From positions 1 to 25,991 of the IMG/VR virus record IMGVR_UViG_3300030116_005952: a stretch of 25,991 nt of DNA; one strand, given 5' to 3'. Below the pieces are notes generated by a model that saw only the letters and a list, made by a program, of their open reading frames with translations, did no database searches and had not been told where the DNA came from. A program made the position numbers and the translations under genes. Below, one piece after another: positions 21,505-24,611 of this stretch (position 1 is its first letter; each line of letters opens with the position of its first letter). This DNA is from a virus.

Positions 21505-22032
21505 CTACTCCAACCAGTCCCAGGCGTGGCAACACGCCCAACCAATCAGTAGAGCCGCCCGCCTGTCATCATTCTTTGCCAGATGGGCCAGCGGCAATGC
21601 CGGGCTATGTCTGGGTTTTGACAGAATATTGCACATGTCGCGCGTAGCCGCAACTGCTCGCGACCTTGGCTGCGACGGTAGGCCCAGTTCAACCCTCCAC
21701 TGAGTGGGGGACACCTCTACATAGGGCACATCTTCGTACCATGCGCTGGTCGCAAAGCGCTCTCTCACCCTGGCCAACCCTAAAGACGCGGCAGCGTTCA
21801 CACCAACGTAGCCACCACCCTCCATGACCATCAGGTCGATGTCGAGAGCCACCCCGCTCACCGCGAGGTAGTCCGTATGGTCGATGTCACGGAAGTCAAC
21901 GGGCTCTGTGCCCTCCCATACGACCACGGCGGTGGCTTTCTTGCCACTCGCCGGGTCAATACTCACCCATCGGCTAGGTGCTTGGTGGGCAGGGGGCGGA
22001 CACGGGGGAAACTTGCTCTTTGATTTAGCCAC
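21505..22032 (-). CDS. RuvC-like Holliday-junction resolvase (175 aa)
   Basis: The RNase-H-fold resolvase signature is visible: VSIDPASGKKATAVVVW with Asp26 (motif I), DLMVMEGGGYVGVNAAASLG with Glu71 (motif II), and a C-terminal acidic pair Asp155-Asp156 in KNDDRRAALLIGWA. The length matches bacterial RuvC (about 173 aa). VSPTQWRVELGLP resembles the segment before the last motif in RuvC relatives. Such phage enzymes cut branched replication and recombination intermediates so that DNA can be packaged, which fits a place between the helicase and terminase genes. The start is a GTG overlapping the helicase stop by 8 bases with a weak AAGG SD. It could instead be a more distant RNase-H-like nuclease. 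Confidence 0.84.
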   Translation of the reverse strand: MAKSKSKFPPCPPPAHQAPSRWVSIDPASGKKATAVVVWEGTEPVDFRDIDHTDYLAVSGVALDIDLMVMEGGGYVGVNAAASLGLARVRERFATSAWYEDVPYVEVSPTQWRVELGLPSQPRSRAVAATRDMCNILSKPRHSPALPLAHLAKNDDRRAALLIGWACCHAWDWLE

Positions 22033-23365
22033 GATGCCTTAATCCCGCAGAAATGAAACGAGTTCTACTGCCATCCCACTCAATATCGCTCTCATATAGG
22101 TTGCGACGGGGGCCGTGGCGGAACTTATCCATGCCAATCTGCGCCTCCCAAGGGCTAGCGTTTTCGTTAACATTATGTAGCAGCCAAGGCACAAGACCCA
22201 AATCAGCATCATCATCGATTGCTCCTGAACCCTTGGAATCGCGGATAGTTGGACGCTCTTTCGTCCTCTTAGCCGCCATTGTGGGTTGAGAGATGCTAAT
22301 CACCACGCAATCTAACTCCATTGCAAGCTCTTTCAGCCCCCGGCTTATCTGCTCAAGCTCCTCAGTGCGGTTGCTGCTGCGCTTTTGGGATCTCATTAGC
22401 TGGATATAGTCCACCACGATGATGCCAAGGTCCCCTTTCTGGGCCTTGTAGGACCGAGCAGCCTGCCTGACACCGTCGATTGTGCCCGCCTGGTGGCCAA
22501 CCACCCTGATTGGGGCAGCAGAAACCCGGTGTGCAGCGTGCGTAAGGGCCACTAACTGGTCCTCGTTGAGGCCTTCCTGGTCATGAAGCTGCACCGGGAT
22601 GCCAGAATCGGCGGCAATAAGCCGTCCGATTATCTGATCAGCGGGCATTTCTAGGCTGACAATGAGTGCAGGGCGCTTCTGCTCGTGGGCAACCGCCCAT
22701 GCAAAGCCATTTACGGACAAAGCAGTCTTGCCATGACCGTTAAGGCTCATGACTAGCACCAACCAGCCGGGTCGAAAGCCTCCTCCGGTAGCCTTATCCA
22801 GCGGATAGAGGCCTGTAGAGATACGTGGCGGTTTCTTTTCACCCTTCTGGATGGCGTGTACCATCTTCATGTAGTCGCTGACTACAGGTCCCGCATCATC
22901 TCCATCCGTTAGATTCTCACCTGACTCCCTCAGACGCCCTACCAACGCCTCAGCCTCGGAGAGAGCTTCTCCTGGGCTGAGGTCCCCATCTATGGCGATG
23001 GATGATAGCTGCTCAGCAGCCTGTTGCATGCGGCGTCTAGCGGTCATCTCCAGCAAGCGGTCCACATAGGTGTCAAGCATGGAGGTTGAGCCGGCTCTAT
23101 CCATGAGCTTGACGAGGTCACCGCCGCTTACACGGCCCCATGAGCCCTGATCACGCATGACTTCTTCGAGCACTACGCCATCGAAGTCCGTATGGCGCTC
23201 ATGCGCCACGACCATGCCGTCCCAGATGAAGCGATTAACGTCGTTATGGAAGTCCTCCCCGGTCAGACGGCTGGACACCGAGGGTGTTTTGGAAGGGTCT
23301 AAGAGCAAGCAGGCGAGCACCTCACGCTCGACACTGCTGCTCTGCGGTAGAAATAGCGGGTCCAT
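22025..23365 (-). CDS. DnaB-type replicative helicase (446 aa)
   Basis: This is a hexameric 5'-3' helicase of the replisome. The N-terminal domain (SSSVEREVLACLLLDPS ... RFIWDGMVVAHER) matches the DnaB N-terminal fold. The RecA-like domain has ISTGLYPLDKATGGGFRPG, Walker A SLNGHGKTALS (about 207-217), SLEMPADQIIGR, Walker B IIVVDYIQLM, ISQ, DSKGSGAIDDDADL and an arginine-finger region DKFRHGPR. The Walker A replaces the usual RPGMGKT with LNGHGKT. I choose ATG 23365 over an in-frame ATG at 23401. It forms a TAATG junction with the methyltransferase stop and has GGAGG 7 bases upstream. The 28-bp duplicate near 24100 also preserves exactly this start. No primase or polymerase lies in the window. 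Confidence 0.94.
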   Translation of the reverse strand: MDPLFLPQSSSVEREVLACLLLDPSKTPSVSSRLTGEDFHNDVNRFIWDGMVVAHERHTDFDGVVLEEVMRDQGSWGRVSGGDLVKLMDRAGSTSMLDTYVDRLLEMTARRRMQQAAEQLSSIAIDGDLSPGEALSEAEALVGRLRESGENLTDGDDAGPVVSDYMKMVHAIQKGEKKPPRISTGLYPLDKATGGGFRPGWLVLVMSLNGHGKTALSVNGFAWAVAHEQKRPALIVSLEMPADQIIGRLIAADSGIPVQLHDQEGLNEDQLVALTHAAHRVSAAPIRVVGHQAGTIDGVRQAARSYKAQKGDLGIIVVDYIQLMRSQKRSSNRTEELEQISRGLKELAMELDCVVISISQPTMAAKRTKERPTIRDSKGSGAIDDDADLGLVPWLLHNVNENASPWEAQIGMDKFRHGPRRNLYESDIEWDGSRTRFISAGLRHRG

Positions 23366-23367
23366 TA
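23340..23367 (-). repeat. 28-bp direct repeat, copy 1 (real helicase start)
   Basis: The sequence is identical over 28 bases to 24084-24111. On the coding strand this copy holds the methyltransferase stop TAA fused to the helicase start ATG (TAATG), followed by codons for DPLFLPQ and two further bases. Bases immediately outside differ between the copies. Confidence 0.97.
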
Positions 23368-24075
23368 CACGGCCTCCAGGCTGCTGATTAATGTGCGCCA
23401 TGCGAGTGCAGCCACTGCCGGAACTTGTCCATTGCCAATGGCTCTAAGTCGGTCCATCCGATTGGCCACCCCATCAACCACGCGAAGTGTTCTGGGCAAA
23501 CCATCAGACCACGGCGATGCCACTCCCTGCACCCTGGGTGCTTCATCATTGATGGCGACGTTTGATTGGCTGTTGCGGTCGGGGTGGCAAGCCACGACCC
23601 AGATGCGTTCACGCTTGTGAGGTGCGCCGGAATGATGCGCTCCGAGCACTCCCCATCCCGCATCAAACCCCAGCGCGGCCAAGTCACCGAGCACGACCCC
23701 AAGGCCCCTAGAAGTGAGCATTGGCGAGTTCTCCACGAAGACGAAGCGCGGTCGTACCTCGCAAACGATTCGGGCCATTTCCACCCAGAGCCCTGACCTG
23801 GCGCCTCCAATCCCCGCGCCCTTTCCTGCGGAACTAATGTCCTGACAGGGAAAACCGCCACTGATAACGTCAACTGAGCCTCGCCACGGGTGGCCGTCAA
23901 ACGTGGTGACGTCGTCCCATATCGGGAACCTATCGAGGTGCCCATCGCGCTGACGCGCAAGGAGCACCCCTCTGGCGTAGGTATCAAGCTCAACAGCGCA
24001 GACGGTGCGCCATCCAAGGAGCTTTCCTCCCAGGATGCCACCTCCTGACCCTGCAAAAAGTGCCAACTCATTCAC
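23365..24075 (-). CDS. C5-cytosine DNA methyltransferase (Dcm-like, 236 aa)
   Basis: The enzyme transfers a methyl group from S-adenosylmethionine to C5 of cytosine. Visible motifs are I LALFAGSGGGILGG (4-17), II with Glu29, III WDDV (53-56), IV GGFPCQDISS with catalytic Cys77, VI VFVENS (Glu115), VIII GAPHKRERIW (150-159) and X AIGNGQVP (212-219). It is short: the target-recognition region between VIII and X is only about 50 residues, so the sequence specificity cannot be predicted. No restriction partner is nearby, so protection from host restriction is the likeliest role. The start is GTG 24075, with an AGGGGG 4 bases upstream. A 28-bp direct repeat flanks the gene, suggesting insertion. 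A second open frame overlaps it throughout (see 23388-24071). Confidence 0.93.
   Translation of the reverse strand: MNELALFAGSGGGILGGKLLGWRTVCAVELDTYARGVLLARQRDGHLDRFPIWDDVTTFDGHPWRGSVDVISGGFPCQDISSAGKGAGIGGARSGLWVEMARIVCEVRPRFVFVENSPMLTSRGLGVVLGDLAALGFDAGWGVLGAHHSGAPHKRERIWVVACHPDRNSQSNVAINDEAPRVQGVASPWSDGLPRTLRVVDGVANRMDRLRAIGNGQVPAVAALAWRTLISSLEAV
23388..24071 (-). CDS. Candidate overprinted ORF nested in the methyltransferase gene (227 aa)
   Basis: This is a same-strand ORF in another frame, wholly inside the methyltransferase gene. Its sequence does not look random: SSSWRTRQCSLLG, then TWPRWGLMRDGEC, ATPTATANQ, and a C-terminal WLMGWPIGWTDLEPLAMDKF followed by RQWLHSHG. From general familiarity, the TWPRWG-MRDGE, PTPTA and LMGWPIGWTDL-PLA blocks occur in many phage proteins associated with cytosine methyltransferases. 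The DNA for the last block also encodes VDGVANRMDRLRAIGNG in the methyltransferase frame. ATG 24071 lies 8 bases after AGAGGGGG, a better SD spacing than that of GTG 24075, and overlaps the stop of a 13-codon relic as ATGA. It may be a second protein or just an open frame preserved by codon bias. No expression evidence exists here. Confidence 0.35.
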   Translation of the reverse strand: MSWHFLQGQEVASWEESSLDGAPSALLSLIPTPEGCSLRVSAMGTSIGSRYGTTSPRLTATRGEAQLTLSVAVFPVRTLVPQERARGLEAPGQGSGWKWPESFARYDRASSSWRTRQCSLLGALGSCSVTWPRWGLMRDGECSERIIPAHLTSVNASGSWLATPTATANQTSPSMMKHPGCREWHRRGLMVCPEHFAWLMGWPIGWTDLEPLAMDKFRQWLHSHGAH

Positions 24076-24109
24076 ACATCCCCCTCTGCGGTAGAAATAG
24101 CGGGTCCAT
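24068..24109 (-). pseudogene. 13-codon relic of the helicase start, possible leader peptide
   Basis: ATG 24109 shares TAATG with the stop of the 114-aa gene and has AGGTGG 7 bases upstream. It reads MDPLFLPQRGMCE and then stops. The first eight residues equal the helicase N-terminus because they lie in the 28-bp repeat. The stop TGA overlaps ATG 24071 as ATGA and lies just after GTG 24075, so ribosomes finishing here could re-initiate on either frame of the methyltransferase locus. Confidence 0.6.
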
Positions 24110-24111
24110 TA
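24084..24111 (-). repeat. 28-bp direct repeat, copy 2 (relic helicase start)
   Basis: This is a perfect copy of 23340-23367, offset by 744 bp. Here the TAA ends the 114-aa gene, and the following ATG opens a 13-codon dead-end frame instead of the helicase. Confidence 0.97.
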
Positions 24112-24453
24112 TTGAACCACCTTTCGGCCAGACACCTTTGCCCCAAACTGGCCTAGGCCGTCAGGCATCATACCTCTATAGCAGTCCCACTCCTCTATAA
24201 GAGAGCCCGGAACGCCGTGCCGGTCGCCAGTGTTAAGCGGAGGCATCGCAGACACATCGCCCCCGTTAAGCACGCTCACCATCGCGGCTGCGCTCTTGAA
24301 CGCCGCCTTTATCCCTGCCCTACTAGGAATATCGACGACAGCGCTGTGGTCGACAAACGTGGCCAGCATTACGAACACCCCGTTGGGGGCGTAGTATCCG
24401 ACATCAAAACCAATGACCACTTCCGACTCGGTGTCGGGCCTAAGAACAAACAT
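24109..24453 (-). CDS. Protein of unknown function (114 aa)
   Basis: From ATG 24453 the protein reads MFVLRPDTESEVVIGFDVGY, then APNGVFVMLATFVD. The alternating beta/alpha feel and GFDVGY resemble the first strand of an RNase-H/actin-like fold, but the second motif is not evident, so I give no function. I choose ATG 24453 because GGGG lies 6 bases upstream. ATG 24459 overlaps that SD, and the longest frame (from 24531) would begin within a hairpin that looks like a terminator. It is the first gene after the intergenic gap and was probably the immediate upstream neighbour of the helicase before the methyltransferase cassette arrived. Confidence 0.7.
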   Translation of the reverse strand: MFVLRPDTESEVVIGFDVGYYAPNGVFVMLATFVDHSAVVDIPSRAGIKAAFKSAAAMVSVLNGGDVSAMPPLNTGDRHGVPGSLIEEWDCYRGMMPDGLGQFGAKVSGRKVVQ

Positions 24454-24485
24454 ACACATCCCCTGTGTAGAAAAGACAAGTAAAA

Positions 24486-24524
24486 CCACCCCGCGCCAGT
24501 GCGCTAGCATGAGACGCGGGGTGG
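24486..24524 (-). terminator. Probable rho-independent terminator
   Basis: CCACCCCGCG at 24486-24495 pairs perfectly with CGCGGGGTGG at 24515-24524 (10-bp GC-rich stem, 19-base loop). On the minus strand the stem is followed by TTTTACTTGTCTTTTC. It sits between the 92-aa gene and the 114-aa gene, 32 bases before the latter's ATG. The long loop and interrupted T-tract suggest partial rather than complete termination. Confidence 0.65.
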
Positions 24525-24566
24525 AACCCATAACCCAAAGGAGAGCTACTCCGAGGGTGAGAAGAG

Positions 24567-24606
24567 ACTGAACGAAGCCCCAGGGGATGTCAAGGCCTCG
24601 TTCAGT
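24567..24606 (-). other. Strong hairpin just after a stop codon
   Basis: A 13-bp stem is formed by 24567-24579 and 24594-24606 with a 14-base loop. It is fully paired in minus-strand RNA with one G-U wobble, whereas plus-strand RNA would have an A-C mismatch there, so the structure favours minus-strand transcription. It begins 5 bases after the stop of the 92-aa gene. The downstream sequence is only moderately T/C-rich, so it may be an mRNA 3'-end stabiliser or a weak terminator working with the hairpin at 24486-24524. Confidence 0.6.
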
Positions 24607-24611
24607 AGGAG

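Follow-up and report, generated by a model that had tools for sequence, protein, structure and literature searches.

Out-of-register joining of two cassettes as the probable origin of a repeat-flanked methyltransferase gene in an uncultured phage

How does a methyltransferase gene come to lie between two perfect copies of the start of its neighbour? The question arises in the window, the whole stretch of 25,991 nucleotides of viral DNA analysed here, where a 28-bp sequence occurs at 23340-23367 and again at 24084-24111, identical at 28 of 28 positions with a spacing of 744 bp. The computed chance expectation for such a pair is about 5e-9 pairs per window, and within the window the 28-mer is the sole exact direct repeat of at least 15 bp with copies 60-4000 bp apart. 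The minus strand carries every gene of the region, in the order leader, 114-aa gene, repeat copy, C5-cytosine methyltransferase, and a repeat copy that is the start of a DnaB-like helicase gene. The genes occupy a slot for variable cargo recognised by comparison with related loci (L numbers below):

24109..24453, minus strand: first cargo, a 114-aa protein without assigned function, motif ..VSVLNGG.., with same-place homologues in L007, L010 and L017
24084..24111, minus strand: upstream copy of the 28-bp repeat, a helicase-start relic by its identity with 23340-23367
24068..24109, minus strand: relic ORF MDPLFLPQRGMCE, whose own stop codon overlaps the methyltransferase start
23365..24075, minus strand: second cargo, a compact C5-cytosine DNA methyltransferase of 236 aa with a GTG start (PF00145, PHROG 363)
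23340..23367, minus strand: downstream copy of the 28-bp repeat, the slot right edge and true helicase start (TAATG), conserved as a single copy in relatives
22025..23365, minus strand: DnaB-like replicative helicase, 446 aa (PF03796, E 1.1e-47; PHROG 19, E 9.7e-77)

The upstream copy (24111-24084) includes the stop codon with which the 114-aa gene (24453-24109) closes, and opens a dead ORF of 13 codons (24109-24068), and the downstream copy (23367-23340) overlaps the methyltransferase stop and starts the helicase (23365-22025). A sequence-only reading of this DNA had described the identical copies and their spacing, with the upstream copy as a relic and the downstream one as the real helicase start; its coordinates and gene logic are right, and both assignments hold on the minus strand. 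It had further claimed that losing one copy with the intervening DNA would rejoin the 114-aa gene to the helicase through a TAATG junction. The sequence bears this out, and the unstacked junction with the 114-aa gene end directly on the helicase would read TTCAATAATGGACCC...CAGAGCAGC. In principle, recombination between the copies could delete the methyltransferase cleanly, and such recombination across 744 bp between 28-bp copies may be rare.

Family searches place the second cargo in PF00145 (E 1.2e-31) and PHROG 363 (E 7.6e-61), and the solved structures nearest to it are the HhaI and HaeIII methylases. Its translation contains GGFPCQDIS, FVFVENSP, HKRERIW and AIGNGQVP, corresponding to the PCQ, ENS/ENV, RER and C-terminal GN(G)xVP motifs of its class. 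We infer that the enzyme may shield phage DNA against host restriction. Relatives of the helicase at 74-99% amino acid identity were found in IMG/VR viral contigs, and every match in named phage records is below 60% identity. No close copy was found in host-genome contigs, where full-length-type matches are only 24-27% identical.

In the IMG/VR relatives, a hypervariable cargo slot adjoins the helicase gene at its 5' side. When the window is aligned with these relatives, similarity breaks at the end of a conserved leader and returns at the helicase start, which forms the right edge of the slot (TARTGGACCC...). Between these conserved flanks the content differs or is absent across 16 contigs, close relatives included. 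The 28-mer or a close form of it occurs once per close relative. The empty site that the sequence-only reading proposed to look for was seen in two forms: L010 and L017 have a homologue of the 114-aa gene directly on the helicase with a single 28-mer, and L025 and L015 have no cargo, the leader end of L025 being fused straight to the helicase. L091 and L173 are chance matches to the search patterns. The left edge of the slot is formed by the leader:

24588..24593, minus strand: TTGACA box at the head of the leader, a possible -35 element; TTGAC is invariant in 14 sequences
24482..24524, minus strand: terminator-like hairpin CCACCCCGCG...CGCGGGGTGG followed by TTTT, conserved with compensatory changes
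24454..24480, minus strand: slot left edge, leader end CTTGTCTTTTCTACACAGGGGATGTGT, the cargo ribosome-binding site preceding the cargo start codon

The leader ends in ...CTACACAGGGGATGTGT directly 5' of the cargo start codon. In the window, L002, L003, L007 and L017, CTTGTCTTTTCTACACAGGGGATGTGT stands directly before the cargo start, and close variants do so in L001, L004, L006, L009 and L010; a second leader type, ending in ...TTTTATCCACCGTCAAGGAGG, occurs in L011, L012 and L015. The compensatory changes of the hairpin fall in alignment columns 99-156 (CG 5, UA 5). A sigma-70 scan of the leader gave no full promoter and no good -10 near the TTGACA box, and a search of the leader against Rfam gave a sub-threshold match alone (sR035, 19 bits; 233 needed). 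The position of the hairpin between the TTGACA box and the cargo (leader 24454-24611) is compatible with attenuation control of cargo and helicase.

The cargo found at the slot is of several types:

Window, L007, L010 and L017: 114-aa-type cargo
L001, L004 and L006, with longer forms in L008 and L009: MSWYIK-type cargo, distantly related to the 114-aa type
L002, with mosaic relatives in L011 and L012: 134-aa-type cargo
L003 and L007: 80-aa cargo gene
L005 and L006: 169-aa cargo gene
L007: cargo protein with a helix-turn-helix (HTH) and sigma-70 region 4

Distant homologues of the 114-aa protein (MSWYIK type) were identified in L001, L004, L006 and L009. Family searches of the slot cargo other than the methyltransferase gave no match except the sigma-70 region 4 of L007 and a weak TPR match in L002.

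Near-identical helicases carry unrelated cargo in two pairs, the window with L001 (97.2%) and L002 with L017 (98.4%). In three other pairs, the cargo is closer than the flanking helicase: L003 and L007 (cargo 96%, helicase 85%), L001 and L006 (89% and 84%), and L007 and L010 (83% and 76%). Because unrelated cargo sits on helicases that are 97-98% identical and cargo is more alike than its flanks in other pairs, comparison of the contigs shows that the slot content is exchanged horizontally. The cargo may be swapped among related phages by recombination across the conserved slot edges. The contig of L001 (G001, 38 kb) is collinear with the window, and is probably complete, as its two ends meet inside one stretch aligned to the window.

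The sequence-only reading had suggested a recent gain of the methyltransferase, with possible reversible loss. The gain itself is supported, the gene being absent from the slot in all related contigs examined. A search throughout the contigs of L001, L002, L003, L007, L011 and L012, made without a positive control, showed no copy either. The two ends of the 716-bp block between the repeats match sequences of this same slot:

24074..24083, minus strand: leader fragment GGGGATGTGT, from the relic to the methyltransferase start, its 10 bases identical to those that end the slot leader
23368..23380, minus strand: methyltransferase tail CCTGGAGGCCGTG (..LEAV), a 13-base suffix identical to that of the different cargo of L002

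The fragment GGGGATGTGT lies directly 3' of the relic, at the position that the leader usually takes before a start codon. Among 79 methyltransferase homologues, the longest leader match at this place is at most 6 bases, and at about 20,000 random window sites the match reaches a maximum of 9 bases and never 10. Descent of GGGGATGTGT from the native upstream region of the methyltransferase was ruled out, as it is missing from the 79 homologues. At the opposite end, the final 13 coding bases are those that close the unrelated cargo of L002, and only 0-1 bases are identical in 15 other loci; the window methyltransferase ends in ..AWRTLISSLEAV before its stop codon, and its homologues end near AWRTL. 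Since 10 leader bases stand at its start and an L002-type tail at its end, these comparisons show the block to be a slot-derived cassette stacked on another.

We consider it likely that the two stacked cassettes arose when phages with the slot in common were joined out of register, and that the repeat is not a transposon-type scar. Read from the leader, the stack is best described as leader, 114-aa gene and helicase start (the relic), then GGGGATGTGT, methyltransferase and helicase. One occupied slot would have contributed its right edge, the 114-aa gene followed by TAATGGACCCGCTATTTCTACCGCAGAG, and this would have fused out of register with the left edge of a second occupied slot, in which GGGGATGTGT preceded the methyltransferase and helicase. 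A single illegitimate join of this kind would stack both cassettes and leave the helicase start of the first parent as the relic. The repeat would then be the helicase start common to both parents, its length of 28 bp set by the span from the cargo stop codon at one side to the join at the other. The methyltransferase cassette itself may have arisen earlier by replacement of an L002-like cargo, gaining the last bases of the leader at its start and keeping the last four codons of that cargo (LEAV) at its end. We infer both the origin from two parents and this order of events.

Translational coupling across the stack was probably retained: the 114-aa stop meets the relic start, the relic stop the methyltransferase start, and the methyltransferase stop the helicase start. 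Ribosomes could pass from gene to gene, since the relic ORF opens where the 114-aa gene stops and closes on the start of the methyltransferase. Against this account, a scan for GGGGATGTGTGAATGARYTNGC found no relative that has leader and methyltransferase alone, the donor it predicts. Clear microhomology is also missing at the exact join, where the one similarity seen is TTTCTAC, matched a few bases away.

The sequence-only reading had explained the repeat differently, as a cassette inserted at the helicase start with transposon-like duplication of 28 bp of target. The perfect flanking repeat and the single copy in relatives that have no methyltransferase (L010, L017) are what such an event would leave, and the gain of the gene stands on that evidence. 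The duplication does not: the block ends in the leader fragment and the L002-like tail, both sequences of this slot rather than of a foreign insert. Its observation that the cassette holds no transposase or homing endonuclease also turns against the duplication, for family searches of the block found methyltransferase families only, with no recombinase, transposase, integrase or homing endonuclease. Moreover, at 28 bp the repeat would be long for the target duplication of a transposon. We regard this explanation as very unlikely.

Alternatively, one genome might have duplicated its slot in tandem, from the end of the leader up to the helicase start, with the methyltransferase then taking the place of the second cargo; this would yield the same order of edges and account for both leader fragment and relic. 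However, the tail of the second unit is of the L002 type and not of the 114-aa type, so that two different slot contents are required anyway, and we judge this course of events unlikely. The double structure is present in one metagenomic contig only and rests on one assembly; 28 bp comes close to the smaller k-mer sizes, and a 28-mer common to co-occurring phages could have joined unrelated contigs. We give almost no credence to such a chimera, because a misjoin at the 28-mer cannot make the join of relic and GGGGATGTGT, which is itself without a repeat, and could at most have supplied the wrong first cargo. The flanks, too, are collinear with those of G001, G002 and G003.

Stacks are also present at this slot in other contigs, which speaks for the stacking account. 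L006 carries genes of 87 and 169 aa joined at TAATGGAC. L007 (3825-5001) carries three stacked cargo genes with joins ATGA and TAATG, the second being the HTH gene; the 80-aa gene of this triple stack is the lone cargo of L003. The stacks of L006 and L007 contain no long relic, and relics are therefore not a regular outcome of stacking. Separately, cargo genes in L006 (2885-2900) and L016 (2424-2440) open with ATGGACGC and ATGGACCCA, resembling the helicase start ATGGACCC, and may hold shorter in-frame relics.

The closest precedent is mycobacteriophage LRRHood, in which genes 43-46 form an insertion between 29-bp direct repeats and the phage Cali has a single copy; the insertion was attributed either to recombination with another phage or to loss, and the origin of the repeat was unknown there (PMC3029335). 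Like the window, LRRHood has a short segment in one phage, direct repeats of about 30 bp and one copy in relatives. In the present case, many relatives reveal the slot with its two edges and its unoccupied form, and the repeat consists of a helicase gene start. At the junction of Island3 gene 68 and Brujita, neighbouring genes share an end of about 50 bp through recombination at short similarity (PMC3029335); there the C-terminal ends of two genes are involved, and in the window a stop/start junction. At the counter-defence locus of ICP1, homologous flanks enclose either odn or CRISPR-Cas (PMC9040626). As at our slot, alternative cargo occupies one site and is exchanged between near-identical phages; in ICP1, however, nucleases may drive the exchange, and our slot has more cargo types and no nuclease recognised among them. 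Mosaicism at short conserved boundary sequences has been discussed against illegitimate recombination (PMC3233612, PMC3029335). The window resembles these models in its breaks at gene boundaries and in boundary sequences common to the cassettes, and goes beyond them in that a right edge is followed by a left edge, which is a direct trace of joining out of register.

The case is modestly novel, being an unusually readable example of known phage cassette exchange. Age has made most mosaic joins of phages illegible. At this slot one can see the edges, the empty and the singly occupied sites and a double occupant that retains its relic, and the stacking step is therefore readable and testable. Because the majority of its cargo falls outside known families, the slot may also be searched for uncharacterised small phage genes that act early against the host. 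A tentative and rather doubtful extension is that the leader end and helicase start persist as handles for exchange, making a plug-in site for incoming genes. If so, an incoming gene would gain a ribosome-binding site, an early position in the operon and coupling of its translation to that of the helicase, and this uncultured phage group would swap and stack counter-host genes at a high rate.

At the 3' end of the helicase gene there is another variable slot (window 22020-22035; L001 6325-6895, L006 4740-5640, L007 6334-7185). The inserted gene of L001 begins GTGGCTAAA, like the next gene of the window (MAKSKSKF), and its end supplies that next gene with a new start, ATGAGTAAATCAAAG. The insert of L007 has a weak PAPS-reductase match. 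In the leftward early genes of G001, G004 and G005 (contigs of 14-38 kb), a repeated motif, AACCCA(T/C)AACCCAA...GGGAGTAGCTCTCC or GAGAGGACAGC, stands just 5' of ATG, and a motif of the same start-associated type occurs in inverse orientation at 24525-24560 of the window. It looks like start-associated sequences in certain other phages.
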